A model generated the notes under the pieces. The model saw only the letters and a list, made by a program, of their open reading frames with translations, ran no database searches and was not told the origin of the DNA. A DNA stretch of 64,000 nt, from the NCBI RefSeq assembly GCF_910592395.1, contig NC_088308.1, positions 20,537,501 through 20,601,500 on the forward strand, written 5' to 3'. Source of the stretch: Lineus longissimus. Lineage: Eukaryota > Nemertea > Pilidiophora > Heteronemertea > Lineidae. The translations under genes were made by a program, and so were the position numbers. Positions 6,774 through 61,804 of the stretch are shown here, piece after piece; positions within the stretch are counted from its first letter, which is position 1, and every line of letters begins with the position of its first letter.

Positions 6774-6801
6774 GTTTAAAGAGTGAGCGCAAACTGCCAA
6801 T

Positions 6802-9800
6802 ATGAATAATTGTGACATAATAGTGAGCAATTACTCTTGTAGCCATCTGGGGACTTTCTTGCCCTTGATCAATGAATACACGTGGGCCAAGGAGGTGCGT
6901 GCCGCTCTCTATCTACTTGGATTACTATGGTGCTTCTTCGGTGTGGCGATAGTCGCTGACGTCTTCATGTGTGCCATTGAAAAAATCACGAGTAAGACAA
7001 CGACACTTAAAATGGCATCGCCAGAATCTTCGTCAGGATTTGAGGAAATCGAGATTAAAGTATGGAATAACACTGTAGCAAATTTAACACTGATGGCACT
7101 AGGATCAAGTGCGCCGGAAATCTTGATGTCCATATTTGAAGTCATCATGAATGACTTCAAAGCGGGCGATTTAGGACCGGGTACAATTGTCGGTTCTGCT
7201 GCATTTAACTTGTTGGTTATAGTCGGGGTGTGTATAATCAGTATACCATCGCCAGAAATCCGCAGTATCAAACAAATCAAAGTATTCGGAGTCACCGCAT
7301 TCTTCTCTGTTTTTGCGTACGTTTGGTTGATCATCGTCTTGTTAGTCAGTTCTCCTGATTACGTCGAACTCTGGGAGGCTATCGTAACACTACTGTTCTT
7401 CCCAGTTCTGGTCATAATTGCGTACATGGTTGACAAGGACTACTGCGCCAAGAAGAAAGACGAGGAAGGCAGCATGATGATGACAGAAAAGAGACGTAAG
7501 TATAATTATCACCACATTGAAGTCGATTCAAAAGTTTGCTTTGTTTTCCTTCATTAAAGTCTTCTGGTTTTCTTTTCAGAAATGACCTCCTATATATTTG
7601 TTGCAAGATGACATGTGTTAAGTCCTGCAAATTTTACAACTTCAGAGGCAATCTTTCACATTCCAATCACATGCGGAGATCCATGATGACGTCATAACAC
7701 ATGCTGGGATATTTTAAACCAGATTAAAAAAAATATTGTCCCTTCATGTTCTTGACAATCGCATAGAAAATATGCTGTTGAACGCACTAATCTGTCAAGC
7801 AGAAAGAAGCTCACAATTATTTGATATTGGATTATAGTCCAGTCAATTTAACCTAAATTTTACAAAGACCACCAGCATGGTCTATTAGTGCAACAGTTAT
7901 AAAACCACTTGTATCTTTCTGAGCTTGGTCCACTTATGAACTTTTCTAAAAAGGTTTTTGGAGTGGAACATCTTTAATATCTTGGGTGACAACTTTGCTT
8001 AGGTGTGTGTATCCTTATGAATTATGTTATTATAAAACCGTTCAATTACCAGTAACCATTGAATTAGCGTAATGTGCAGCCTGACATGTATTATATGAAG
8101 TATATGCTGTTATGAGCACTGCACAAAAATGTAAATGGTGTGAAATGTACGTATTCATAATACTTCTGTGCCCAAAGCAGTTTGTCAAAGGATATTAATA
8201 ATCATACGGTATTGAAGAAATAAACCTATTTTAAGGAGCACAGGTACATGTACATGCACAAAGCTTTAAGTACACTGTTGATGAAGTCAGTATTTGTCTC
8301 TCAGTTCGGGTCGTAGACAGGTCATCACGCTTTCGTCTTGGGAAAACAAATGAGAAAACAACTCAGAATAAAAACTTGAAAACCAACACAAAATCAGAAC
8401 ACAGCGCGAAATCAGTTTTGGTACATCCGGTCACAATGACAACAGCAAAGACGTTGATGGGCTCGTTACCATGTTACCGTCATTATCGGATCAGAAATTA
8501 TTGTGCGGTTCTTCAGTTATTGATTTTTGAAAATTTTGCATTTTAAAAGTGAACTTCAGCTGTTACCATGGTTGCCAAATGCTTTTATATTATCTAAATT
8601 GATATACCATGGCCCGCAATATATACCCACCGGAAATTTTTGTGGTTGGTGAAAATGAGGGGAGAAATTTTAAAGTGTGTTGATAATGATTATGAAAATG
8701 TGTCTGTGGGTTAACCCAGTCATCCTTGGTCACAGGGATGACGGATTTTCTGCAGTGATCATGCAGATGGGTAATTTTTGTTGCATGCAATAATTATTGC
8801 AGGTTGCCTCACTAGTAGATATTGCCTGTTTCGAAGATGCTTTCAAAGCCAGCTTTCTCATTCCTTCCAGATTGCAGTCCTCTTTCTGTACAACACTGGG
8901 TATCTGACCAGAAGTTTACCATCCAGGGCCTGAAATGATAAGGACTGGTGCTTCCTGTGGCTTTTAGTCAAGCTTGCTTATTGCTTTCAGATTCCAACGA
9001 GGGATTGCAATCAATCTCTTCAGGAAAGGTTGCACCCATGAATGGGCCCACGGATGATCTAGTCATAGGGGCTGATCAAAATTATGGTACAGTAGTCTTA
9101 CTGTCACAGTGTGGAAAGAGTGTTACCACAAAGGTCTACGTGTTAGTTTTGTGCAGCTGTCAACATGAACTCTACCCCCCCTCCCTCCCTTGGTCAGCGG
9201 TTGACGCCGATTCGTCAATATTTCTATAACATACATGCAACAACAAATGTCGTGCCTTTCATTCCCATCAGAGCAGAAATTATTGAAATCATGGCCACCA
9301 CATTTTAAGGCCAAGGGTGGAATATGTGTCGAGTGTCTGTTCGGGGGGGGGGGGGGGAGGTAAATAGTTCTTGTTGACCGCTGCATTTTATAGTGGTTTT
9401 ACTTTGCTTGATAGGATAAAAGCAAAACAAATGATGTGGTTATATGACAAATAACCAATACATGAAAGGTTCTTCAAGATTTTTTGATATTTTTGTAATC
9501 CAGGGGTATCATGCAAAGGGGTTTGAATGTATTTTTTATCACTGAATATTGCGTATTTTAGTAAAAAACCTGAAAATGATGGATCAAAAACGATCAGATT
9601 CGTGAAAATAGAAGTTTGTAGTAGTTGTATTTTGTGGGTTTTTTGCTGTCTCATGCACTTTTTGTCACCTCCCATGTGTTACATACATTCAACACAGAAT
9701 CTACCCAGTCACGAACTGTTGAGTAAACACCATAATCTATCACACTTCAGTCTTCAGTTTAAGATGTTAGCAGACTTATGGTGCTTTATTCTAATTGTTA

Positions 9801-12800
9801 GGTTAGATACATGTACACGTGTTGTAAAAATCAAACCTTTTTCCTAATAGTTTTTCATTGTTCCCCCTGACTCAGTGTTTCAGTGTTCCTCCTGACTGCC
9901 ACTCGACATGCATTTCTATAAAATATTCAGTGTTCCTCCTAACTGTGGCTGATAAATCATAGAGTTGTTTCAATGCTCCTCCTGACTGAAGCTGAGCATT
10001 TCCATTGTGACCATCCAGACCAAAATGGGTAGTCGAGAACACTTTAGAGGACATAATTCCAAACTTGGACCATAAAACATTCCATCGGACCATAATCTTC
10101 GTGGTTAATGGGTTTTTCTATTAGAAAAAGTTAGCCCACCAGACCAAATATATCCTACCACCGGACCATTTTAGTTAACTATAGCCCCAACAAATCTGAA
10201 TTTAGCACCTGATCAAAAGAAATTTTAGTGGAGAACTTTGCCTCCCTCCCTAACGATTGGTGAGGTCCTACTATGGAATGGATATTCCTGTGTGTGATCG
10301 ACCACAACGCCTTGTAATCGACTGTACAAGTGTATATCGATGTTCTCACGGGGACATTTCACAAAGTGTGGTTGATCAATAAGCTTTTTAAAAGCCCTAT
10401 ACTAGCCGTTTGTTAAATATTGTAAATTTGTATTTGAATATGGACTGAACAAAATTAAATGACAACATTGCCGTTGTTTAGAAAGATCCATTTTTTAGCA
10501 AATTTGCATTCATGATATTGATAAATTGCATTACGATACGGCAGTGTGTGTGTTCACTACATTTCTGTTTTCCTGAGCCACCAGTGAACATTACCCGTTT
10601 AATACATGGGTCTCCATAATATAATCCTGTCACCAATACAATATTGACTATTGCCAACAATAGAAATAACTGAGGTGATTAGTCTATATTTATGCATTAT
10701 GATAGACTTGTAGTTGGGATACATGTAATCTTTGATAACTTCGTGTATGGAATTCATTTATGTTAGACATTCATTGAAATATTTCATTGTAGCATTTTAC
10801 TCCATGTGGCGAGCAAGGTCTCTGGGTTGATTTTTAGGACAAATTTATTGATTTGGCTTTTCATTGCTTTGCTCCTAAAATCAGTAAGTCTTCATGTTGG
10901 CCCCAAAGTGATATGCCTACACAAACTTTCAACTTTCCATCACTGATGGCCAGTCTCTTTAAAAGTCAACATAATAAACGTGACATTTTCTCAGGATTTT
11001 GCAATCAATGGACGACTATGGCTGCCGCTACACGTTGCTAGTTGCCACAAGGGTAGGCATGGTTTTGTCAAGTGATGTAAGCAAAAAGACGAATTCGATT
11101 GCAACTGTGGCTGTAATCCTGAGCTGTGTCACTCATCGGATATTGGCGACCTTTGTAAATTGTACATCAAAGATCAGTCTTTGACAGCTGACAAAAGCTC
11201 TCTCTCTTGCCAGTTGCAGGATTGAGATGGTTTTGACATTATTGACTTGTGTACTCATCTCCATGATCAATGTCACCTCTACCTAACAGTATCTCATATA
11301 CAACGCTAATTAGCCTGATCTTTGTTTTACAAGCATGACTGATTACCCATTGGTTTGATTTGTTTTGGGACAGCAATTATATCAAAATGATAATTGTGCT
11401 AATTGCCCCTTCAGATTGCAATACGCAACCAGTCTAGCTCTATGTCACAATGTCAGGGGAACAAGGGGCCATTTGGTGATGGTAATTAGGTTACAGATGT
11501 GACCACAATTGATAGTTTGGTCAGGTTATCAGGCCAGGCACTTTGGAGACAACATCAGACAGGTCCAGAGTGAGGCCATGATATTGTAAACCCCTATATT
11601 TTTGCGATCCTAATATTTTCACCGATTTTTGACTGGGGGAAACGTGAACAATGGACATGGAGATAGTGCCCTGAGATTGTCAAATGTAACATACTGTGAC
11701 GTTGTTGCTGTGAATACGTATCAACCGTATTTGGTAACTAACCAAGTTTATGTATGCTATTGTTTGTTGACTTCAAAGTTGATGGCGTTATTGGCAGTTA
11801 CAGGGAGAAAGTAGGCATAAATAATGATATATTTCTACTTGCTCTACATGTTCGTCATGACACTAATTACCTGCTCTATTATTTACACTCTTCATCAAGT
11901 CATTACAAATTGACTTTGTGAGTTTCCATGGGGTCCGCCTGTATAACAGGATTTTCTCATTTGCGTAAAAGTGGCATATACTGTGGAAAACAGTGTTCTT
12001 AGGTACAGACGAATGAAAGAATGAATATTTGATCAATCAATAATTTCATAATGTTTTATCAATCACGCTAAGCATTATGCCTAATGACCAGCGAGGCTCG
12101 AATGCTTGGTTGGCATGATGTAGTGGTCTTTCGCTTCGAATCATTTTACATTCTTTCCAGATGATACAAAAATGCATTATTCCTACCTCTCTTCAGAGTC
12201 CTGCAAAATGTTTTAAAGAACCCTTTTTGTCACTGCTCCTTCAGTGTTTCTTTATTTCGTATCTTACAGCCGGTGCAAGTGGCACTATTGGTCTGTCCGG
12301 TGGTAAGGTCGATGCCGATACCATCAGATTGATCCTGAAGAGCATCGGAAAACATCCGGACCTCTCTGAAGAAGATGCAGCCAAACTTGCAGCAGCCATC
12401 GCGAGTGAGCATGAGTCCCACAGCCGCCTCTGGTACAGGATTCAAGCCACGAGGAGCATCACTGGCTCGAATAAGCTCACACCAGCATTGAACGAATTAT
12501 TGACAGAGGTAAAAAGAGCGCTGTTTTGAAGTTAACTTCATCATCCTCATCATCATCAAGGCATGATGAGCAGGCTCTCCTGCATGGGTCTTTGCCTGAA
12601 AAACATTTTGGGTTCACAGGGAGTCGATCTCAGATCTCTTGAACTGAAATCCAACACGCTATATACCACTAAGCCATAAGGAATATCGCAAACCTCATAA
12701 AATGTTTGCTCTGTTGCTACATATAACTCTATAGTACCCTTGTTGACAAGAAGCGAGGAAAAGTTTTTGGAAACAACGTTCCTAACCATCATACCTTTAA

Positions 12801-15800
12801 TTTTGAGGGGCCGCTACATTGGCTTCGTAATTGACTTAAAATGGGATATCATCCCATTCTTAGCACCAATTCTTCAAGTTTTAACACAGTCTTCGGTAAT
12901 CTCGTTTGTACTTGAGCTTATTCCTGCCTATTATATTGTCAGCATTGCCACTTATATAAGAGCATGAACTCTGATAAAGACACTAGACCTACTTGATATC
13001 TTAGACTTGGGATTTAGGTCAAGTGTCCCTCCAGCATGTCCAATGGACTAATTACAATGATGTAATAAAAAAGAATTCTGTTGGCTCGAATGTTATCTGG
13101 AAAAAAATTAGGTATCGGAGGGTGGAGCACGGAGGAGGGAGGGGGCAAGACCCTCTAAGCACATTGCTCTTCTTGTGCAAGGTCAGTGGCTATTTAAGGG
13201 ACCACCCTTGTGGTTGTTCTACCAGTACTGCTATAATTATAACTGCTTACACAGTTTGTACAGGTTGTATATTTTGTGGTACGGCTATCCAGAAATACAA
13301 TTAGCTTTGCTCAGAAATTCTTTCTTGGCTAGGTAGGCTCTATGATTTAGAACCACTACTTGCCCTTGCCTTGACCCAAAAGCTCTGTTAAAAATAACCC
13401 TACATGTACTCGATTAGTTGATAAAAGTACTTGGGTCAACGAATCGTAGTCCATCATCAGACTCAAATAACATCATCGATCTCTGAAACAATTGGGCATC
13501 TTTTGGTTGGTCAGCTTTGATTAAGCAGCATGTCAAGAATGCTTGATATGAAAACATATCCAGCATTTCCAGTAGCCATGGACCTGGGTAAATTTGCAGA
13601 AAGGATGCACAAATATAAGAATATTGATTTCTCTTCCAGCTTTTGTACTTTTTATAGTGTTGACCTAATGGATGAGGGTTGATTTTAGAAGCATCTTTAT
13701 TATGTACTAACTCATTTTAATACTGGTACTGTAAACTACGAAATCTTTCGTCAGAGTTTGATCTTTTGGTTCACCATATTCTCCCTCTGTTTTCAAGCTA
13801 TACGAGAAAGCAAAGGAACGACAAGACACGGCAGCATCACGTGTCTCCATGGCTTCTATGTCCTCGATGGAGGTCGACGACCTTAGCCACGGCGGCGTCC
13901 GCTCAGTCATTGAGTTTGCTGCCACGTCGGTGGCAGTAATGGAGAAAGATGGCCACGTTAGGCTTACAATCCACAGATATGGACGCACAAATAACCGAGT
14001 TATAGTCAAGTGAGTTAATGATGAAATGTTTAAAGTACAGGTATGTTTTTCTTGCTCTGCTGGCTGAAAGTGCCCTCATCAATCTTCTGCAGCCTCTTAC
14101 ATTATGTCAGCAGAGCGCCAGGCCCTCGGGCCTTTTGTTAAGGAAGAAAATACATGTATGTTACTGATCTGGCTCTGACCTTTGTCCATACCGTGTGGTA
14201 TGCCTGAAAGTTGTTGGGAAATAGTCAGCAGAAATGATCTTTTTCATGGATTTTAACTCCAACATGTCCATGACGAGATTGCCGTCTATATCGTTCAAAG
14301 CTTCTATTGGCATTCGCAATCAAACTGCTGGTTGCCATTCAATGGCTTCGCCTAGCACGAATCTAGTGCTCAACTTGATCATGCAAAAAAAACTCCGACT
14401 AATTTATCATCCACCAACAACAAAATGCCAGCTATGTATGATCATTGGTGTCATCATCCAAGTCTGCTTTACTGATCTGATTCTGTCATTCTGTTTTGTG
14501 GACTTACAACTGACAACCCAAGGTCAAATTGTTCAGCTTGTTTGCTTTGTCGATGAAATGATAACCATGATTTGATGGGAAAGTGCTCTTTATCTAACCC
14601 ATCATGGTGGTTTTCTTTCTTCATTTCATAAAGTTGTTTTCTGTCCATTGTCTATTCAAACTGGTGAAGATTATGGTATTTTTTTCAGATTTGAGACGAT
14701 TGATGGCACAGCAGAATCTAACTCTGATTACGTCCCGAAAAAGGAACTGCTTGTTTTTGAGAAAGAAGAGGTCGAGAAGAAAATAGACATTGAGATCATT
14801 GATGACAATGAATGGGAACCCGATGAGATGTTCTTTGCCAAGATCGCTGTCGATACAACCTCGGCAGACAGCAATAATATGGTGATTGGCCGACGATCTG
14901 TGTGTCAGGTGACCATTATTGACGATGACAGTAAGTTGAATCAATTTGAAACAAGATTCCTTGAAAAAATCTTTAAATCATCCTTCTTCATTTGTTTTTT
15001 GCCTAGTTTCCTATTGTAACCCATCGCCCATTCCTTATCTAGTTCTTTTCTATGATATTTGCCTGTTCTTATGTAAAACTGTCTATTCATCTGTTCCTTT
15101 TAGCAAAATAGTTCTCATATTTTGTCACATTTTCGATAAAATCAATTTTGAGGAGTCAACGTGTAAATGTTCGTGTTTACTTTATGATTGGCAATCTAAT
15201 GTGGATCAACCAAAGAAATAATCGCCTTGAGTGATTTGTTTTTGTTAGAACGCCTCATGAGGCCTAACTTCATATTTGACTAGAGGTTGATCTTGATTAT
15301 ATCGTACAACCTTTAAGATTTGATAGAATTTTTTAGTCAAAAGCTGAAAATCCTTTGGCTGTGGTGGAGCTACACCACCAGTTGAAAAAAAACACCTCCA
15401 GTATTTCTGTATCCCACGCAGGTATTGGCAATCGGCTGTTGTATAGACAGAATCTATTTTCCGCTGCACCGTAGAAAGATATACGCATCGTTGTTTACTT
15501 GCGGACATCTCAACTCGTTCGGTACTCTTGGAACTCGATTTATTGAGGGGAGCATCTCAAACTGACAAATAGCTGAGATGCTACTCATGGAAGTAAATTT
15601 TGGAGGACCATCTCAGAATCAGCATCAACATAGAAATTGGAATCTAATTTTCTAAAGGGACCATCTCAGAAGCAATGTTGGGGAGAAAAACTGGCATGGA
15701 ACTGAATCCCATGAAAACTGGGATCCTATGTAGTCCCCAAAGGGAGTACATAGGATAAAGCTCTTTGCTTTTTGAGACGCTGTAATCGTTCACACTCCAA

Positions 15801-18800
15801 GGCGCACTGGAAGTGTATGTAACTGGTAGCCTGGGAACCCGCTTATGATATATATAATGACCATCACGGAAGGCAATGATCAAGATGCCTTACTAAATGT
15901 AACTGAGTATGAAGAGCCTGATTTTAGCTTCAACCGTTGCAAATGGGTCAAATTCGCAAGGGGTTGTTTTTACTGATAATATAAAACTCTCATAGTATTT
16001 TATCATCATACAAAGTAAGCCTGAAAAGTGGTTTAGACTATGCAGTTTTGGGAGATAGCAAATTTTTTTCGATGTTGGGCCGACCCATGTTATCAGTAGC
16101 AGTATTGGTACATCACCTTTGGCAGCTACCAGCCTATAATCAACGACTGTAAACGATATTCTGCCGCGCAGCATGGTTGTGCAGAACCTGGCAGCTCATC
16201 CTTCAGATTCTACCCATGCTACAATGAATTGGTTTCCACCCGGCTAGAACCACGCAGGAATGTCTTATCATTACCGATAGTTAGTTTGCTATTAACTATC
16301 TTTAGTATACCTGAGCCCCGGACCTGAACGGGCCTGGGTTATTTTCCAACCTGGTATACTTTAACTGCGGGCCACGCCTTAAATTTTTCTTTAACGCTTT
16401 TCACTTAATATTCTTTTGACAAACTATAGTACCAGGTAGGTTGCAGAATGGTACATAGCGCAGTATTATCTGCAAATGTTTGCATCATGTGTTTTGCTAG
16501 AAGTCGCACTTGTTAAGTCAATATTTAACATTGTTTTTGTCATTTTTGTTTGAAATTTTCACAAGATCGATTTCATGGAGGGCACCCATTATACCAGTAC
16601 AGCTCAACAGCTGGTATGACTGGGTCATGTTTTGTTCAGTAAAGAATACAGTCCTGGTGCAAGCGTGAACATACGGTATTCTGGAGATAGGATAGACCTA
16701 ATCTCCGGAGAGGCCATCAATGTCGTCATCACTCATTCCATGAGTGAGTGTAAACATTTTACTGAAATATACCTTGTGGACTATGAAAGATATGGATGAA
16801 AGCAAAGATAAGACGAATATGTTTTTGATAGAAAGCAATTTTATGCACAAAATATAATTTTAGCGTTACATATTGGGCAGTGAACCACCAACACTAGCAC
16901 ATAGTGAAATTCTTGTCTTGGTCGTAATGTGTTCTGATTGGACATGTAAAAAGTTTGTCTCATGTGGTGTGTCATTGGAAGGTCTGTTGAAGTATATTTT
17001 TGTTGTGTTTCACACACTTCTAAGTTTGTTAAGACCTCACAGATGGCTTGATGTGTGTTGACATACTTGGCATGAAGGCCATTGGCGATTGTTACATAGA
17101 TAGAATGAACTGTTCAGGCCTTCTAGGTAAAGTTTATACTAGTACTACAGGGTGGCTCAGAATTATTTCCCCTTGCACAATAGAATTCTATTGTGTATCC
17201 ATTGCGTGAGGGAAAATAATTCTGGGCCATCCTGTAGAAGACATGCATTTGGGGGGAAATCTACTCACCTTTGAGGCCATAATGTTGTTTGAGTGTAATT
17301 TGACCATGAAGCCATTATGTGACCTTTACATGACAGAAAAAGTCTTGCCTTTTAAACATGAAGGAAGGTGGTTGTGAATAATAAGACTCATATTATTGCA
17401 AGTGGAAATTCCAGAATGATTTTAAGTGAATGCATTGCAATTGCAAACAGCAATGTTTGTTGCAGATAGCTGCACAACAATTGCATATGTCATGGAACAA
17501 ACGTCTGGCGAGAAGGCAGAAGTGCGTTTTATGTTTTAAAATTCTTTAAATGTGACCACAGGGAAATATATTAAATTGACAGAACTTTCATTATTCATGA
17601 AACTTCAGTGAAATAAGTGATATCAGGCATTTGACTATTCAACCATTTCCACCTCCGACACGTACGTGCTGGAAAAGTGAATGCGCAATTGATCGATCTT
17701 TTTGAGTAAATGGTTTCAGAAGAGGCACCAAGCAGCATGCATTAAAAAGTTTACAATTTAAACCTCGAACTGAATCCAGAATATTACAAACAGCCATGTA
17801 CATAATATCTGGCCTGATGGTAATATTCAGAACCGGTCCTACATCAGTGAAACTACAGTAAATGATGTGGTAATGTCTCTGGAACATATAGTTTTGTTTG
17901 TATAATATTTATGTTGAATAATTAAGATTTTGTCTCTTCCCCCAGAACCTGGCATCCTTGAGTTCACCAAACCAAGTTACCTGTTCAAAGAGAGCTCTGG
18001 GAAGGCGTTGATCCCTATTCAGAGAACGATGGGCGCCGATGGGCGAATCGCGGTCAAATGGGCGACAGAGGACATGACGGCCCTGAACGGGCGCGACTTC
18101 ATCGGGGGTGAAGGGGAGATAGTGTTTGAGCATGGGGAGGTCACCAAGATGTTGGAGATACCAATTAATGATGACCAGGTAAGAATTACAGTTCAGGTCA
18201 AAGGTAGCATCAATTTATTTTGTGAGTTACAGTATGCACAAAAATTAACCTAAAATGAATTAAGTCATGAACAAGTTAATATCGTCATGGTAAGTTGTTT
18301 GGCATTAGAATGATTTCTCTATCTGTTGTTTTTCCTTGCCTGTAGCATATTTCCTCTTAGAATTTTCAACCTAGGAGAATAAAAGGGTTTTGTTGCGGGA
18401 CAGAATACTCATGAAGTGTCCTTTTGCAGGAAGCAGAAAAAGATGAGAACTTCAGGATCATTTTATCTGAGCCAACAAAGGGTGCTGAGTTGGGTCGGCT
18501 GAAGAGGACGGTGGTGACAATTGTGAATGATGACGGTAAGTGGAGGTTTTTGGTGGAAGGAAATGATACCGAACTGGAGGTACTGATCGTCTCACCGAAC
18601 ACCTTAAGTGATACCAGTCAAAGTAGAGTCTCTGGTTGAGTTTTTTTTTTGGCAAAATGACAGCTCCCCGCGATTGGTGTTTGATAAGACAACCCATATA
18701 TCCAGTTCGGTATCAATTCCTTAATAATCAGAAGGTGACATCTTAATTTCTGTCTGTCGAATACCCAACTGTCTCTCGGTGTCGCAGACGATCATACACT

Positions 18801-20938
18801 ACACAATGCCGTAGTGCAATTATCATGAATGCAACTTTGCTGAAACTAGGTATTGTATGTCTACACAATGGCAATGTTGAAATCTATATTCGGGACGCAT
18901 TTACGCCATTGGAAATTTTAAAATTCAGTTACAAATTTCAAACTTTAAATGAAGGAGTTGGCCTTTAAAGCTGTTGAACTAAGGTGTCTGCATGGTTCTT
19001 TCTTGGAGATCTAAAAATATCCCATATCATGTTGGATAACACAAGTACGCACGCCAGTTGCTAACATTAATTGAATGAATAATTGACACTAATTGAATAA
19101 ATTATCAACCTTTTATAACTTATATCTGCTTGTAGCTTTACACAGGTCTGGGTCGTCATGGAAATCTTTACCCCTTGCCTTCATCTATTGAATTTCATAT
19201 TGATTTTACTGGCACATTCAAGAGCTTTTAATAAATCTTGCAAATCCACGAGGCCTTGGGTATTGTGTATTGTCTGATTGTTAAAGGCCTGCTCCGCTTG
19301 TTCAAAAATTTGGAAATCGAACTCGAATTTGATTTTTTTCTTCTAATTGTGTGGAGGTATTGAATTATGAACCTAATAAAGCATCATTGGATATTTTATG
19401 ACGTGCTCCATGCAGCTGCTAGCTCAGGACATGTTGCTTGGAGGTAACAGATTCAGGGGTGGCTTTCAGGTTATGCGCTCCATGTGTTTTTCCGGAAAGA
19501 AGGCTTCAAATCGACCCTGCGGCGATGTCGGCCCAGGCGGTCCTATTCAGCCCGCTCTTCTTGCACTCCTGCTAAGCCCATTGGACCTTGTTGCTATTCG
19601 TAAAAATTATCATGCCTGATTTAAAACGAAATTTGACTAACTTCTCTCTTCTCAGAATTCAATGGTATTGTTAGTCGGCTTGTCAACACAACCAACATGA
19701 ACCTGGACGCGATGAAGGTGGACCACACCACATGGGTAGAGCAGTTTCAGAATGCAATGAATGTGAACGGAGGTGACATCGAGACGGCATCGGGACTTGA
19801 CTATTTCTTGCACTTTGTGACATTTGCGTGGAAGGTACGTTAACAATTACATCATGTTTTAGAAATGATTATGACTCTTCCCATAGGGCTGAAAGAGGAT
19901 GACCTCTTGAACATTGTACCAGTTGAACATGTTGAACAACGACAAGATTTGTGTCCTTGAAAGACAAAGTCAATCTCCTTGATAGATACATGTAGGGCAT
20001 CCTGCTTACAGAACACTCGCTAGAGAGGTTCAGTCTATGGAGAAGGTATTTACTCCTTTAACCCCTGCATCTTTGAATTGTTAATCAACACATTTTCCTT
20101 TTCAATTTCAGATTATCTTTGCCTTAATCCCTCCGCCTTCCATCTGGGGTGGCTGGCTCTGTTTCTTCATCTCCCTCATCTTCATCGGTATTCTCACCAT
20201 CCTCATCGGCGACTTGGCCAGAATCTTTGGTTGTCTCGTCGGGCTTGAGGACGCCGTCACAGCCATAACGTTTGTCGCGATGGGTACAAGCCTTCCAGAT
20301 CTATTCGCCAGTAAAAATGCTGCAACTCAGGAAAAATATGCTGACAACTCGATAGGGAACGTCACCGGAAGTAACTCGGTGAATGTGTTCCTTGGTTTGG
20401 GTATCCCTTGGGTTATCGCTGCTGCTTACTGGACTGCTCAGGTAAGGACAGACGCAACTTCTTTTTCTGTATTCTCTTATTGTAGCCACTAGTATAGTCA
20501 GAAGAGGATGCAGGGGAAGGGGCAAAGTGGCGGGCCACTTATTTGTGAATTGTTTCGATATTGGCCGAAACAATCACTTGGGCGACCTTCTCTTTCCAAC
20601 AAACTTTGGTCAGAAATTTGAGGTTTTTCTGAAAGCTTGGTGAGAAACTCCCTCGATTCTTCACCACACCAATATACTCTTCAATGTCTTTTCAGGGCAA
20701 GACCTTCTACGTGCCGGCAGGTTCCGTTGCCTTCACCGTAGTCCTCTACACCATCTGCAGTCTTCTGTGTATCGGCCTCATACTGCTCCGGCGCTATCTT
20801 ACAGTGTTTGGAAAGGGAGAACTCGGAGGAAACAATGTTATGAAATGGGTGTCTTTTGCCTTTCTAGTCACACTGTGGGTCCTGTATGTCTTACTTTCTG
20901 CCTTTAACTCATATAAAATCATCAATGTCAATTTATAA
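6802..20938 (+). CDS. NCX: Na+/Ca2+ exchanger, SLC8/NCX family (9 coding exons)
   Basis: Plasma-membrane antiporter exchanging Na+ for Ca2+. Exons: 6802-7495, 12270-12508, 13798-14009, 14689-14930, 17946-18178, 18430-18535, 19656-19834, 20112-20441 and 20696-20938. Phases match at every junction and give 825 aa. Alpha-1 (about residues 96-140) contains ALGSSAPEIL and GSAAFN; alpha-2 (about 685-737) contains AMGTSLPDLFASK and GNVTGSNSVNVF. The cytosolic loop carries YRIQATR, then Calx-beta 1 (about 347-462, with DGTAESNSDY, IIDDNEWEPDE and a closing DDD) and Calx-beta 2 (about 464-576). The start is the first ATG after the acceptor at 6772-6773; an in-frame TGA at 6784 rules out extension within this exon. 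Oddities: no cleavable signal peptide, and no basic/aromatic XIP-like segment after the fifth helix (DKDYCAKKKDEE instead). A small alternative exon in the 4.8-kb first intron cannot be excluded. The family call is very secure. Confidence 0.97.
7496..12269 (+). other. First coding intron of the exchanger gene
   Basis: The donor GTAAGT begins at 7496 and the acceptor ends at 12269; the split codon joins in frame across them. I see no second coding exon inside. The contents are AT-rich unique sequence, a run of 15 G at 9343-9357 and a decayed repeat near 9.9 kb. The open frames in it have no family features. Confidence 0.75.
9876..10005. repeat. Degenerate local repeat with core gttcctcctgactg
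   Basis: The core gttcctcctgactg recurs with changes three times at roughly 50-60 bp spacing (near 9891, 9932 and 9976), each followed by a diverged spacer. The whole lies in the first coding intron of the exchanger gene and looks like an old, decaying minisatellite. Confidence 0.5.
12535..12690 (-). repeat. tRNA-derived SINE-like element
   Basis: Read on the minus strand, TGGCTTAGTGG (12676-12666) matches the RNA polymerase III A-box consensus. GATCGACTCCC (12629-12619) is a decayed B box at roughly tRNA spacing. The body continues through gagcctgctcatcatgcc and ends in a GAT-rich microsatellite tail (gatgatgatgaggatgatg), as SINEs often do. It lies in the second coding intron of the exchanger gene, right after that exon's donor. 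The acceptor-stem pairing of a working tRNA is not evident. The ends are approximate. Confidence 0.6.
14931..17945 (+). other. Exchanger intron between the two Calx-beta domains
   Basis: A 3-kb intron with donor GTAAGT at 14931 and acceptor cccag ending at 17945. The split AAA codon restores DDD-K-PGILEF, the usual linker between Calx-beta 1 and 2. No coding exon is visible inside. It contains the TA-flanked inverted-repeat element at 17148-17234, plus short repeated phrases (gaccatctcaga and similar) around 15.5-15.7 kb. Confidence 0.7.
17148..17234. mobile_element. Small inverted-repeat element flanked by TA (MITE-like)
   Basis: The left end cagggtggctcagaattatt is mirrored by the right end aataattctgggccatcctg as an imperfect terminal inverted repeat of about 26 bp. 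The two ends are directly flanked by TA (17146-17147 and 17235-17236). A TA duplication is typical of Tc1/mariner-type insertions, so an internally deleted 87-bp mariner-type MITE is the best reading. The loop contains a second small palindrome (caatagaattctattg). Confidence 0.6.
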
Positions 20939-27230: not shown

Positions 27231-27402
27231 CATTTGCTGAACGCCACGTCCCCGATGTGGGTCTCACCCATTGGCACACCCACTGTCCCATTGTTGTGCC
27301 GTCACTTGTCTCTTGGTTGTCCAATGGTTGTCTCCGAGAAGAGTTTCATGGATATGGATGGGGACATTATAAAACAAGTCGGGAACTGTCTGGCAATCTG
27401 CG

Positions 27403-28160
27403 TGTCCGAGGAGGTTCCTTCATGCTGGAGGAGACTTCACTCTCAGCTGTCTGTGTTTCTCAATCGTCTACTGGGGCAATGTCCATGTACGAGGAGGTTC
27501 CTGCACGGGAGGAGACTCCTTCACTCTCTTCTGTCTGTCTTTCTCAATGGTGGCAATATTCATGTCCAAGGAGGTTCCTTTATGCTGGAGGCGACTTCGT
27601 CACCTTCTGCTGTCTGTCTTTCTCAATGGTGGCAATACTCATGTCCGAGGAGGTTCCTTTATGCCGGAGGCGACTCCTTCACTCTCTGCTGTCTGGCTTT
27701 CTCAATGGTGGCAATATTCATGTCCGAGGAGGTTCCTTTATGCCGGAGGAGACACCTTCACTCTCTGCTGTCTGTCTTTCTCGATGGTGGCAATATTCAT
27801 GTCCGAGGAGGTTCCTTTATGCCGGAGGAGACACCTTCACTCTCTGCTGTCTGTCTTTCTCGATGGTGGCAATATTCATGTCCGAGGAGGTTCCTTTATG
27901 CCGGAGGAGACACCTTCACTCTCTGCTGTCTGTCTTTCTCGATGGTGGCAATATTCATGTCCGAGGAGGTTCCTTTATGCCGGAGCAGACACCTTCACTC
28001 TCTGCTGTCTGTCTTTCTCGATGGTGGCAATATTCATGTCCGAGGAGGTTCCTTTATGCCGGAGGAGACACCTTCACTCTCTGCTGTCTGTCTTTCTCAA
28101 TCGTCTGCTGGCAATATTCACGTCCGAGGAGGTTCCTTTTTACTGGAGGCGACTTTGCTG
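27403..28160. repeat. 79-bp minisatellite, about 10 copies
   Basis: The phrase tgtccgaggaggttccttta starts at 27563 (one mismatch), 27642, 27721, 27800, 27879, 27958 and 28037, exactly 79 bp apart. Diverged copies lie before (27403, 27486) and after (about 28120). The central copies are almost identical, so the array expanded recently. Since 79 leaves a remainder of 1 on division by 3 and the unit has no stop in any + frame, three long overlapping open frames (up to 412 codons) run through it. They share the same repeated peptide in rotating frames and are artefacts. Confidence 0.9.
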
Positions 28161-47540: not shown

Positions 47541-48479
47541 TCAGTCAGTTTTCAGATCATCTCGAAGCGGCTTCCAATCTTGACAGAACTGATACGGGAA
47601 GAAATACCAACCTGGAAACCTGAAGACGGCTTTTGCCCGCATGAGCCAGACCCCTCCGAGGTAGTGTTTCATGTCGACCGAATCAAATACCTGGTGCGAG
47701 AGGAGGACAACTGTGACGCCGACCAGCAAGATGTTTACCAAACATGCAGTGAGGAGCCACCCAAAGTTACTGACATCATTTTCGAACATCAGGAAACATG
47801 TCGTGGCAATGGTCAACGCGGTGGTCAGCGGTGACAGGACAGCTACCAACAAAGCACGAAGCCTGGAGAAGCCTGTCAGTCCTTCTTTACCAGAGATCTC
47901 TGGCAGAAATTCGTACAGCTCACCATCTGGAGCCCTCCATTTCCAGTTGAATGGGGGAAAGGTCAGGAAATGATCAAAAAGTAGGAGATTCTTGCCGTTG
48001 GCAAGGGAGAAGATGGCATTCAGGCTTATTGACGTGGCTACTATCAACGCTGGTAACAAGGGAATCATGACAAGTAGGGCTCCAAGGAAGGAAACGAATG
48101 GGCCCTTGTCAATGCAAGTCAACTTATTGGTCAAAGTTCCTTCTAGCGAAGCGACGTTCGTGCACCCTGGAATTGCACCAGAAAACAAGAATACGAAGAT
48201 TAGTAGGATACAGAGACTAAAGAAGACGCCTTTCATCAGAACTATGTGAGGATAGATCCTATGCAACGGATGGACCGTCCTCAAGCCTTTGCCCATGGCA
48301 AGAACTGTGATGCCCAACTCTAACTGGATGGCAAATATGAGAACAGAGTTTGGAAACAAGAAGCAACACATGACATCATCCGGATCCACAGAATAGCGAA
48401 GAATATTGGTGAAGTAGTAAACGACCGTCAACAGGTAGGACAGAAATGAGAAGAAAAGCAAAAATGGTAACAGCAGACT
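47541..48479 (-). other. C-terminal six-helix membrane domain of the fusion gene
   Basis: Six hydrophobic stretches at about residues 447-469, 484-508, 524-546, 574-602, 654-678 and 685-707. The loop between helices 3 and 4 contains two cysteines (PGCTN and LTCID) that could pair if it is extracellular or lumenal. The loop between helices 4 and 5 carries FNWKWRAPDGELYEFLPEIS. With an even number of helices, both termini, including the enzyme, would be cytosolic. I do not recognise the family. Confidence 0.75.
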
Positions 48480-51199
48480 TTGCTGGTCAAAATAGACTGC
48501 TTCAATCCGCTTCAACTCCTTCAGGATTCTGCGGCTCTCCAAGTATGATCTGTCAGCTTCTGCCATGACGTCATCACCGCTGACGAACGGGCTAGTCAGC
48601 CTGTGGCCTTGACCTCTAGCTTCCACTTCCCTGAGGATTTTAATGGTGTACTTCCCAAGGTCATACATATCCCATTCGGTGTTGTCTTTGCAAGCTTCTA
48701 GAGCAATGTCCAAGAAGGTCATCTTGATTGGATAGGAGGGAAGAATGCCATCACCGTATGGATCTTTGATGTCCACATTATCGCGAAGACACTGAAACAT
48801 AAAAATTGATACACAATACATACAATGTTAGCACAAACACGCAAATGAAGAATACGATTTTAACTTGATGATCTGAGGTAGTTCTTCTAACGTTACCTCT
48901 GTAAAGCCCACTACTTGCAGATCGTATGCAACCTTCAATTGGAATAGGATGTTACCCTGACACACTTAAAAGTACGGTTTTTGAAAAACCTCCAATTGTT
49001 TTTCACTTTAAATAACCTCTACAGGGTTCATGTATGTGTTGGTCAAACCACTAAATGTTTTCCAAAAGCTCAAAAGTCTTTTATTGTAAGGGTGTACTAT
49101 TGAAGTTTTACAATACGTACACACAGTTCGGAACAACTACTACACGTACATTACTTGGCACACCACCGTTTGCATCATCATAAATCAAAGGGGAGCATGT
49201 GATTGCCAGAGACTCCTAAGATCACGCTCAGACACAGTTGTTCCAAAATCGTTCTTACGCTACAGAGCAGTTCATAAATAGCCTACCTTTATAGCTCTGT
49301 AACAAGTAAGCTTGTGCATGTCGTCATGACAGACCCTCTTCATCAACTCCTGCTCGGTCTCAACATAGCATATTTTCCAGTAGTCATGAGCGCAGACGAA
49401 GTGACTTTTGAAGGTCAACCCCCATGGAAGATCTCTTGTCAGCGGAGTCAACTCTTCTGTCGTGAAGAGTTTTGATGGATCCGCCTTTATTCCAACGGTG
49501 AGGTCGATCTTGATGACTTTCTGCTGGACCGCATTCTTCTCCCAGAGCGCAATCTTTACTGCAGGACCAGCCTTCCCAAGGTAATGTTGGTAAGGCAGTT
49601 TTAGATTGATAATGGCTTTACAAACATCTTGTCTGAATCTCTCGTGGACTTCCTTGGGCACCAGCTCTACTTCTCCTTCATGGGCTCCTTCCCCGTCATC
49701 AACAGCAGACGGTAATGTTAGCTTGTAGAATGCCATACTCTCCTGATTCGCTGCTCTCGGTTTGGTTCTGAGAAGAGGCTTACGATATGCCTTGTAGTTA
49801 TCTAAGGTGATGAGATACTGGTAGTCAAACTCGTCACAACTGCTTACCTTCGTACCCTCCGCAACACTACCACACATGCTAAGCTTCCCACCTTTGAACA
49901 AGGGGTCGCCTTCCTCGTTTAGGTACTGGACCACATCCTGTATCAATGATGAAATCTCAGCAGAAGTGAGTTTGTCCGAGGCAAGTCTCTGGCGATCGCT
50001 CTCCCGCAGGTTGACTGCTTTGTCGTTGAGAACCCGTTGGTCGTTTTCTAGATAGAGCAGGTACGGGGTGAGATAGTACCTGGTCACGATCTCATCAAAG
50101 GCTATGAATTCACTGGGAAGCGGGGGCTTAGAAGTTAAGTCCTGAAAAGAAAATGTTCCTATAGTCCTACAACTATAAAATAGAAAGGGTCCAACGACTT
50201 TATGCGAGGATCTTCGAAGTGGCACAGTAATGACTTACAGAACCTTCTTCGATGAGCCAAAAAAACCCCATAGTTTATACCCTTATCTCGTCGATTTTTC
50301 TGATTATTCGAGGTGCTTATATTCACCACCTATCCAGTAGACGATACAGATAGCAAGGGGGGGGAGGGTCGGCAGAAGTGCTGCTATACCAGCTCCAGAC
50401 GTCTCCAAAAAGCGAATTTTTCACTGATGCCGATTGAAGACGAGGACGGAAGTGGTGTCCTGCCTCCCCCTCCTTTCTTTTCATACTAGTGGTATTAGCC
50501 TTCGTAAGGTTCAACATGTCTTACAGGTTGCCCTAGATGCAGAAGGAATAACCAGACACTGACAGGCAGATGAATAATGCTGATAAGGATAGCCCTCTAA
50601 CGTTTGCTTTGGAACAATAAATCTATACCTCATCAACGTCTTCCTGTTGATGTTCGCCATCTTGTTCTTCTGTAGACTGCACATGATCGTGAACTTCAAC
50701 ATCGTCGTCAATAGTTACATAAACATTCGAGCCTAGGAATGGCTCCTGAAATGCAGTCAGAAAATAATCTATGAATTGATCATCCTCTTACAGTACCGGT
50801 ATGTGCAAATCAATGCCACTGAGCAATTATAGATCATTTTCACAATCGTAGTTTTTGTTTTCAGATAATCTGAGTCATCTTTGCGGACATTAGCATCAAT
50901 ATGTTGCAGAATTGAAATACATTAATTCGAGCTTCCAATTTGTTGCACCAGATTGCCACATCATTACCGCCCCGGTGTTTTCATATGCCTCCTCGCTGCA
51001 AATATGGGTCACTCCTCATGCAGAACTTCCCTGCCAACAGTGTCAAGGGGTAAGCGTGAAGCGAGGGGCTCTTCCACTTTTCTGATTCATGGGATTTTTA
51101 AAGTGTCTATATCCTAACTTTATTCCTGGCCGAAGCCTCCCTTACCAATTCTTCTTCGCTGATATCTATAAGACTATCGTCATCGTCTAGGCCTGCCAT
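47541..51199 (-). CDS. cGAS/Mab-21-type nucleotidyltransferase fused to six-helix membrane domain
   Basis: Four coding exons: 51199-51146, 50745-50629, 50141-49287 and 48791-47541, all in phase 0 with good GT/AG sites, giving 758 aa. Residues 1-57 are an acidic linker (MAGLDDDDSLIDISEEEL and onward). Residues 58 to about 440 form a Mab-21/cGAS fold: GS at 148-149, catalytic E161 and D163 (DEFDYQYL), third acid D270 (KIDLTVGI), then the helical lobe with CYRAIKCLRD, LPSYPIKMTFLDIAL and the W382 region. No zinc-thumb insertion is evident. Residues about 447-707 hold six hydrophobic helices, followed by a tail rich in aromatic residues (FRFPGWYFFPY). Known cGAS-like enzymes make cyclic dinucleotides on sensing nucleic acid; other Mab-21 proteins have no known activity, so the product here is unknown. 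The fusion lies within one exon (47541-48791), so it is not a splice-model error. ATG 51199 is the first in its exon; that exon is open to its acceptor, so an extra 5' exon is possible. Confidence 0.9.
48492..50141 (-). other. Nucleotidyltransferase (Mab-21/cGAS) domain of the fusion gene
   Basis: Exon 50141-49287 carries the catalytic lobe, including the spine-helix-like TRYYLTPYLLYLEN, the GS motif, the ExD pair and the third aspartate. The start of the next exon (48791 to about 48492) carries the C-terminal helical lobe. The intron between them falls inside AIK|CLR, a continuous Mab-21 helix. This continuity supports the joined exon pair as one domain. Confidence 0.88.
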
Positions 51200-60100: not shown

Positions 60101-60858
60101 TGTCACTTAAATTATTAGTGGGTTGTTCCTTGTAACGGATGTTCTCAGTTGGATACAATCCTAAGGCGAGGAAACTACGATTCCCACTCGCATAACTTAA
60201 CGAGCCGTTTTGATCTGTGCAAATAAGGAGGCACATTGGTTTGTGTCAGTTATACGATTTAGCAAAAATCTTGAGGTGAAACAGATTCTATAGTGAAATT
60301 AACTATATGTTTTGAAGCTATATGTGTGTATGGGAGTACTATTGCGTCAGCTACTATATACGGCACAGTAAAAAGGAAAAAATTTATCGACCTTCGTGTA
60401 ACAGAACAGAATTTCTGTGAACGCATGCGATGCAAATACCTCCAATTGTTCGCCACAGGGAGACAATTTTTACAAGGGACCAGTGATTTCGTTGAACGGT
60501 TGAGAGAATTTATCTTCTCACCAACCTTTGCAATCTGACTAAACACATACGGCGTATAGCAATCGCCGCAAGCGATAACATCTTAGTTTGCGATCGATCG
60601 CTATTGCATTTGCTAGGAGAAGCACAACCGTGTATCTGGATTTTGTAGATTTGGACTTTATAGATTTCTAGTTTACAGATTTGGTGGGTGAGGTCGTGTC
60701 AAAAGCCTTCACAAGAGCGGATTACACAATATATATAATATAGGTACATAATCAAGTTCGAGAGCACATACATTTGTATATCGGAAGGTTGATCTAGATC
60801 ATATAACTTTAAAGGCAAAGTTAAGTTTTGAGAGAAAGAATACTGATACCCATTTCAG
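51200..60858. other. Long stretch without a supportable gene
   Basis: Positions 51200-51219 are the 5' untranslated part of the exon holding the start codon of the cGAS-like gene (acceptor CAG at 51222-51220). An upstream noncoding exon and promoter must exist but cannot be placed. Frames at 52.3-52.8 kb (145 codons, minus), 53.8-54.4 kb and 59.9-60.5 kb have no domain, signal peptide or splice logic that I can support. Acceptor-like sites near 59.3 kb could belong to an untranslated exon of the next gene. Confidence 0.5.
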
Positions 60859-60901
60859 GGAAGAACCCATTATTCTGATTGGCGTACGTTTGTTCTCAAA
60901 T

Positions 60902-61804
60902 ATGCCAAATAATCGTCACTGGAAGCGTCGCCAGGCCAGACTCCACGGTGCCCTACGCGGCTGGCCAAACAATTCAATGATAGTAACATTTAATATCGAA
61001 GGTCAGAATCGAACATTTAAGGCACTCATAGACCACATTCCGCAGGAAAAAGAACCCTACGATGCAGAAGGTGCCACTCTATACGTTGTAGCTGTGATAA
61101 TCATTTATGGGGTCAGTATAATACTGATGATTTTAGCAACTGTCCGGGGTCGTCGACAGCATAGATACCTTGACCAACAGATATCGTCGTACTTCAAAGA
61201 CGTTGAACGAATTAGGAAAAAGGCTATGGCAAATTCTGTTATCAACCAATCCATTAGTTTAGCAGCTTCACAGACTAGACTGGACTCCAGTACGAATCAG
61301 TTAGACTCATTACCATTGATTGTGGAGTCGTCTGAACCTTCCCCTGACGTGCGAGGTTCTCGCAATTTTTTCCCGAACGATTCCGCTAGTTCATGCAGCA
61401 CCCCAGCTCTGTCTCAGTGTGGACAATTCGACGTTGCTGGTGCACCAACGCGCTTTGAAAAAGGGATTCTGAGAAAATCATTTAATAGAGAGAATTCAGC
61501 GAGTGCTGAGAGTTCGCCAGCTTCATCTCGGAGTGTCAAGTTCCGGCACGATTATGGGGTTGAGAGAGGAGCTCTTCGGCATCAGCTGAAGTATCAGATC
61601 GACAGCTTAGGCGTCCTCAGGCCAAAACTAGCGGATTATATTGACGACGAGGATACTGTTAGTGCTCCCAATTCTCCTGGACTTGCAAGGGTTCAATTCA
61701 AACCATTGGGTCAACAGCTTGGTAGAAGGGGCCAGGCGCGTGTACACAAGATGCAACAAGAACATGAGGAGCAAAATAGATCTGAAACGGAGGATGAAAA
61801 CTGA
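60902..61804 (+). CDS. Single-pass membrane protein, KCNE-like
   Basis: A 300-aa frame from the first ATG in an exon whose acceptor (catttcag) ends at 60858. The frame is open back to that acceptor, so a longer N-terminus from an upstream exon is possible. N-terminal residues 1-57 are basic, with one N-glycosylation site (NRT, 36-38). A single hydrophobic helix spans about 59-81 (TLYVVAVIIIYGVSIILMIL), followed by VRGRRQ and then SSYFKDVERIRKKAM. The tail is long, rich in Ser and Pro, and probably cytosolic. The YG inside the helix, the basic stop-transfer and the KDxER...KAM segment resemble the potassium-channel beta subunit KCNE4 as I remember it. KCNE proteins bind voltage-gated K+ channels and alter gating. 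Length and tail exceed typical KCNE, so the family call is tentative; that it is a coding gene is likelier. Confidence 0.6.
   Translation: MPNNRHWKRRQARLHGALRGWPNNSMIVTFNIEGQNRTFKALIDHIPQEKEPYDAEGATLYVVAVIIIYGVSIILMILATVRGRRQHRYLDQQISSYFKDVERIRKKAMANSVINQSISLAASQTRLDSSTNQLDSLPLIVESSEPSPDVRGSRNFFPNDSASSCSTPALSQCGQFDVAGAPTRFEKGILRKSFNRENSASAESSPASSRSVKFRHDYGVERGALRHQLKYQIDSLGVLRPKLADYIDDEDTVSAPNSPGLARVQFKPLGQQLGRRGQARVHKMQQEHEEQNRSETEDEN

Follow-up and report, generated by a model that had tools for sequence, protein, structure and literature searches.

Enzymes related to cGAS are mainly known in soluble form, detecting nucleic acid in the cytosol, and the question raised by one locus of the nemertean Lineus longissimus is whether such an enzyme may also be built into a membrane. 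The locus lies on the minus strand, at positions 47541 to 51199 of a 64,000-nucleotide stretch (assembly GCF_910592395.1, contig NC_088308.1, 20,537,501 to 20,601,500), which will be called the window and whose numbering is followed below. At the level of sequence, its product is a bilobal nucleotidyltransferase of the Mab-21 type with intact catalytic residues, to which a predicted polytopic domain is attached with no recognised domain between the two. The reading that we prefer, with roughly even confidence, is that it would be a membrane-integral relative of cGAS, one of at least ten such Lineus loci, working as a cytosolic synthase that acts on STING and that is placed or adjusted by its membrane domain.

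The gene, known here from the DNA and from the NCBI model, consists of four minus-strand exons, every one in phase 0 with GT...AG introns, which give 758 residues and a stop codon; the predicted, uncharacterised protein LOC135491429 (P0001 hereafter) matches at all 758 residues, and this NCBI model, which spans both domains, is identical to the one proposed in a preliminary description of this DNA. Exon 1 (51146..51199, donor GTAAGG, the same as in the NCBI model) carries the start codon and an acidic N-terminus, residues 1–18, and exon 2 (50629..50745, with GT/AG borders and in phase 0) an acidic N-terminal extension, residues 19–57. The nucleotidyltransferase core, residues 58–342, occupies exon 3 (49287..50141) and includes GS148-149, E161, D163 and D270. 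The last exon (48791-47541) then encodes, as had been described, the end of the helical lobe (48498..48791, residues 343–440, with the conserved motifs YGDGIL.SYP.K and SYLE) as well as the entire membrane domain (47697..48497, residues 441–707), followed by a predicted cytosolic tail, residues 708–758, and the stop codon (47541..47696).

With respect to the enzyme, the GS and the three acids of P0001 line up, in the family profile alignment, with GS, EFD and D in human cGAS, and the predicted fold in which these acids are paired is of the cGAS type (the VIA alignment covers residues 81–440), so that the preliminary claims of an intact motif and of a single site for the acids held up. A Mab-21/cGAS profile match, as expected in the preliminary description, does exist for the family; P0001 alone scores 18.5 bits over the whole protein and 22.6 bits over exon 3 (E 1.2e-4), below the curated gathering score of 24.1 of Pfam PF03281, but all six family proteins scanned match this domain at E <= 1 (best E 1.9e-9), and it is a precomputed Pfam domain in three of them (P0004, P0005 and P0006). 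Likewise, a profile of the six members finds human cGAS in the PDB over profile positions 84–343, reaching the helical lobe; exon 3 as a single sequence does not, the sole matches listed for it being two tryptophan synthases at E 0.13–0.14. Ten residues are identical at all ten loci (C147, G148, S149, E161, D163, D270, E320, S361, Y362 and K365), and K342 is kept in nine, the L014 model having a gap there. On the basis of the profile alignment and of what is known of cGAS, we take E320, K342, S361 and Y362 to be equivalents of its nucleotide pocket.

The hydropathy of P0001 has no membrane segment before about residue 441 and predicts six after the enzyme (448–466, 491–509, 531–549, 575–593, 653–671 and 688–706), in agreement with the preliminary description, which had also considered the membrane part to be of no recognised family. 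This too was upheld: exon 4 has no Pfam match at E <= 1, a profile of seven membrane parts finds no solved structure in the PDB at E <= 1, the same exon as a single sequence gives chance matches only (E 1.5–1.8), and a fold search with the membrane part returned no trusted match; in the whole family proteins the further Pfam matches are weak (E 0.06–0.56). The distribution of charge would give this domain an orientation, as lysine and arginine make up 22 of 162 residues in the predicted inner loops of P0001 vs 3 of 65 in the outer ones, a clear excess that is found in seven of the ten members. The N-glycosylation sequons of P0006 and L016 sit in predicted outer loops. Among the seven alignable paralogs, mean pairwise identity is 28% and 31% in the inner loops, 17–25% in the helices and 11–13% in the outer loops. 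The highest value of the membrane part belongs to residues 601–650, within the loop that joins helices 4 and 5 and is predicted to be cytosolic (residues 601–659, 47841..48017), where the motif WKWxxPxG is found; a pattern search locates [WYF][KR]WxxP in this post-helix-4 loop in six of the ten members, and P0003 has a related TWKWEDKSG at the same place. Given six helices and an enzyme on the cytosolic side, the C-terminus would be cytosolic as well. Because the membrane part diverges fast and is best conserved in two predicted cytosolic loops, the sequences speak for an anchoring or regulatory role and less for a conserved transporter or channel.

The arrangement is repeated in the genome. 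Counting that of P0001, ten loci on nine contigs carry the enzyme together with the membrane part (C1, C4, C5 twice, C6, C9, C10, C12, C13 and C20), a number that is a lower bound; six are predicted proteins (P0001–P0006) and four were read from the DNA (L013–L016). The hydrophobic segments come after the enzyme in all ten, and the helices called are, in that order, 6, 6, 6, 5, 6, 4, 5, 11, 5 and 4, thus four to six in nine members, while the 11 of L014 may take in frame past its exon. Identity of the nine paralogs to P0001 is 32–58% in the enzyme core, 45–72% in the lobe end, the best-conserved stretch of the family, and 14–36% in the membrane part. The differences within each of five paralog pairs follow the order 3 > 1 > 2 of codon positions in core, lobe end and membrane part alike (15 of 15 comparisons; in the membrane part of P0001 and P0002, 0.51, 0.37 and 0.67 at positions 1, 2 and 3), which indicates that the membrane part is maintained coding sequence. 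The fusion is therefore more than chance, as nine further loci share the arrangement and the codon order holds in each of the five pairs examined.

A tree built from these ten members only has two supported groups, P0006 with L016, and P0004 with P0005, L013 and L015 (the last on a long branch), and leaves the branching order of P0001, P0002, P0003 and L014 unsettled; for the membrane parts, HHalign supports the common descent of two groups (72%, E 3.4e-5). Two variants of the C-terminal part were also observed. At L014 (C12) the last-exon frame continues through up to 11 predicted segments and the enzyme frame ends early, so that its membrane domain may differ, and in P0006 and L016 the four helices called are followed by a tail that contains cysteine, the KWxxP loop and helices 5-6 being absent.

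How such a protein might work can be proposed as follows. The membrane domain would put the enzyme on one membrane, be it that of the endoplasmic reticulum, an endosome or the plasma membrane, with the enzyme part on the cytosolic side; a change of ligand or of membrane state would then lead to the formation of a cyclic dinucleotide from cytosolic nucleoside triphosphates, and this product would act on STING. The conserved cytosolic loops could pack on the helical lobe and thereby adjust the activity, and it would be in the outer loops and helices, which change fast, that the paralogs differ in location or in what they sense. The conservation of the enzyme and inner loops, together with the variability of the outer parts, is consistent with a tethered and regulated synthase, a pattern that suits a receptor and an anchor equally. 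As for the target, the same genome has an exon for the STING ligand-binding domain (C11:2036599-2036703; 27.4 bits vs a cut-off of 27), which scored alone reaches 30.1 bits, above the Pfam cut-off (stretch L020:555-725, C11 near 2036600, containing NGLAWSYFFGYL), and of whose 75 PDB matches the 60 shown are all STING; hence a receptor for a cyclic-dinucleotide messenger probably exists in Lineus.

Several observations weigh against this proposal. The enzymes known as cGAS-like receptors (cGLRs) are defined by an active-site motif, by homology over two lobes and by fold (PMC9980059), and a Mab-21/cGLR superfamily definition rests on the Pfam domain PF03281 and on a place within the superfamily clade (PMC10732462). 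The Lineus family shares with cGAS and cGLRs the bilobal fold, the GS, the E-x-D and D acids, the SY motif of the helical lobe and the order of these elements, with homology over both the nucleotidyltransferase core and the C-terminal helix bundle (the cGAS profile match and residues 81–440) and predicted structural homology to cGLR/CD-NTase enzymes. However, the published motif h[QT]GS[X8-20][DE]h[DE]h[X50-90]h[DE]h is matched by none of the ten members, though all ten have the acids: the residue preceding GS is Cys in every one, where the motif wants Q or T, and the third acid follows at a spacing of 91–132 in nine and 87 in one, the limit being 90. For this reason the family is filed as a relative within the cGAS/Mab-21 fold family and not as a strict cGLR, though it probably works like a cGLR. 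The enzyme parts, moreover, have little basic excess (estimated isoelectric points of 5.3–6.9 in eight members, 8.2 and 8.5 in the other two), and the one zinc-ribbon-like pattern tried is absent from all ten, a further difference from cGAS and cGLRs; mostly slightly acidic and without that pattern, they would not be expected to have a DNA groove like that of cGAS, and they may respond to a different trigger. For the predicted models, the mean predicted local distance difference test score (pLDDT) is 49.6 for the full-length protein and 48.9 for exon 4, so that the packing of the loops on the lobe stays a proposal. In P0004 and L013, for which five helices were called, the charges do not follow the inside/outside rule, and in L014 they do so weakly; the predicted cytosolic tail, at 19% identity, is conserved no more than the helices and departs from the trend of the inner loops; HHalign gives no support for the membrane parts of P0006/L016 or L014 sharing the descent of the others; and the sole STING match among those listed for the genome is a single exon with 35 matched positions.

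With these points in view, the same observations can be read otherwise. An active synthase could sense its ligand through the enzyme domain while the membrane part merely holds it, and much of the divergence would fit such a plain anchor: the membrane part has changed far faster than the enzyme, the number of helices varies between members and the tail is poorly conserved. Yet one helix would be enough for an anchor, and nine of the ten members have four to six called, with both inner loops better conserved than the helices, so we regard this alternative as rather unlikely. At the other extreme, and on balance unlikely, the family could be receptor cyclases of the cGAS superfamily that span the membrane, in which a polytopic sensor would read something in the membrane, the lumen or outside the cell and the conserved cytosolic loops would switch a cytosolic synthase of cyclic dinucleotides feeding STING.

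Other readings concern the enzyme itself or the fusion. A catalytically silent scaffold, comparable to MiD51 or ITPRIP, whose fold binds a nucleotide or partner at the membrane and makes no messenger, is recommended by several membrane-associated Mab-21 relatives for which no messenger production is known, and by the MiD51 structures that rank beside cGAS among the best fold matches; but all ten loci, deeply diverged as they are, keep the GS and the three metal-binding acids together with E320, S361, Y362 and K365, which makes it distinctly improbable. Very improbable, too, is that the protein is a self-contained alarm, in which the membrane domain would be a pore or channel effector gated within one chain by the adjoining enzyme or its product. 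That the fusion is an annotation artefact, made of two separate genes or otherwise spurious, could appeal to the junction of exons 3 and 4 (49287/48791), which is a predicted splice, and would still have to account for the enzyme end and the membrane domain lying in the same exon, for the six database models P0001–P0006 all holding both parts, and for an exon break after YR[AIC]IK that is common to nine of the ten loci, as judged from the reading frames (the L014 enzyme frame stops earlier); we find it hardly credible.

The membrane-integral synthase that we favour would have partial counterparts. In MiD49/MiD51 and the ITPRIP-type Mab-21 relatives, the fold likewise adjoins a membrane segment, there a single one on the N-terminal side of the enzyme, unlike the Lineus family with at least four helices after it. 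Itprip is described as having a Mab-21 fold and a predicted membrane segment and as being linked to inositol trisphosphate receptors, and one predicted or curated transmembrane segment is mentioned for Itprip and Itpripl1/2 (PMC6550788). With STING the family would share a multi-helix membrane part and the signalling pathway, but the Lineus helices follow the cytosolic domain and those of STING precede it, and the STING ligand-binding domain PF15009 has no Pfam match at E <= 1 in the six members scanned. Membrane adenylyl cyclases also combine, in one chain, nucleotide second-messenger synthesis and about six membrane helices, a likeness of messenger-type enzyme and helices that is analogy only, their catalytic folds being unrelated. 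The predicted polytopic C-terminal domain, in turn, sets the family apart from cGAS and cGLRs; of the latter, 87% are single-domain, and the section of PMC9980059 that deals with fusions names those with TPR, ankyrin and multi-cGLR arrangements and, within that section, none with a membrane part.

Protein searches scoring 7996, 7989 and 3405 candidates returned the six Lineus proteins only; these searches are word-based and weak for distant relatives, the first two were capped in size and the third missed cGAS itself, so that absence outside Lineus cannot be concluded from them. The nucleotide collections scanned were viral, phage and prokaryotic: 100 pattern matches in viral contigs and 48 in prokaryote contigs yielded no confirmed relative, nor did phages, queried with exon 3 only. 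For three of the six family proteins, NCBIfam gave one match, at E 0.077, far under its cut-off, and PADLOC none. In the open-licence literature, the titles and abstract beginnings of the matches listed (in several cases the best 20 of 49, 20 of 34 and 8 of 8,960) showed no cGAS/Mab-21 enzyme fused to a polytopic membrane part.

A multi-member family that is built into membranes and retains its catalytic residues would offer a way to ask whether membrane or transmembrane inputs drive cyclic-dinucleotide signalling, as the alarm signal that the enzyme may make would arise at a membrane rather than from a freely floating enzyme. If the receptor-cyclase possibility were true, cGAS-type sensing would extend from cytosolic nucleic acid to signals crossing the membrane, the paralogs having diversified in the sensor part. 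In addition, a filter based on the h[QT]GS... motif would miss all ten members despite their complete acid triad, and therefore lists of cGAS relatives in animals that were compiled with this filter may have gaps.

Elsewhere in the window, a 350-residue open frame (60752-61801), which contains a single hydrophobic stretch, has a charged tail and gives no Pfam match at E <= 0.01, resembles by eye a KCNE-type subunit. A sodium/calcium exchanger gene is found on the plus strand (6787-20489), with Na_Ca_ex in two stretches, Na_Ca_ex_C and two Calx-beta exons, and a 79-base tandem repeat of 9.6 copies (27391-28153) lies inside a GC-richer island at 24–28 kb, where GC is 0.50 vs 0.38–0.44 in the other 4-kb blocks.
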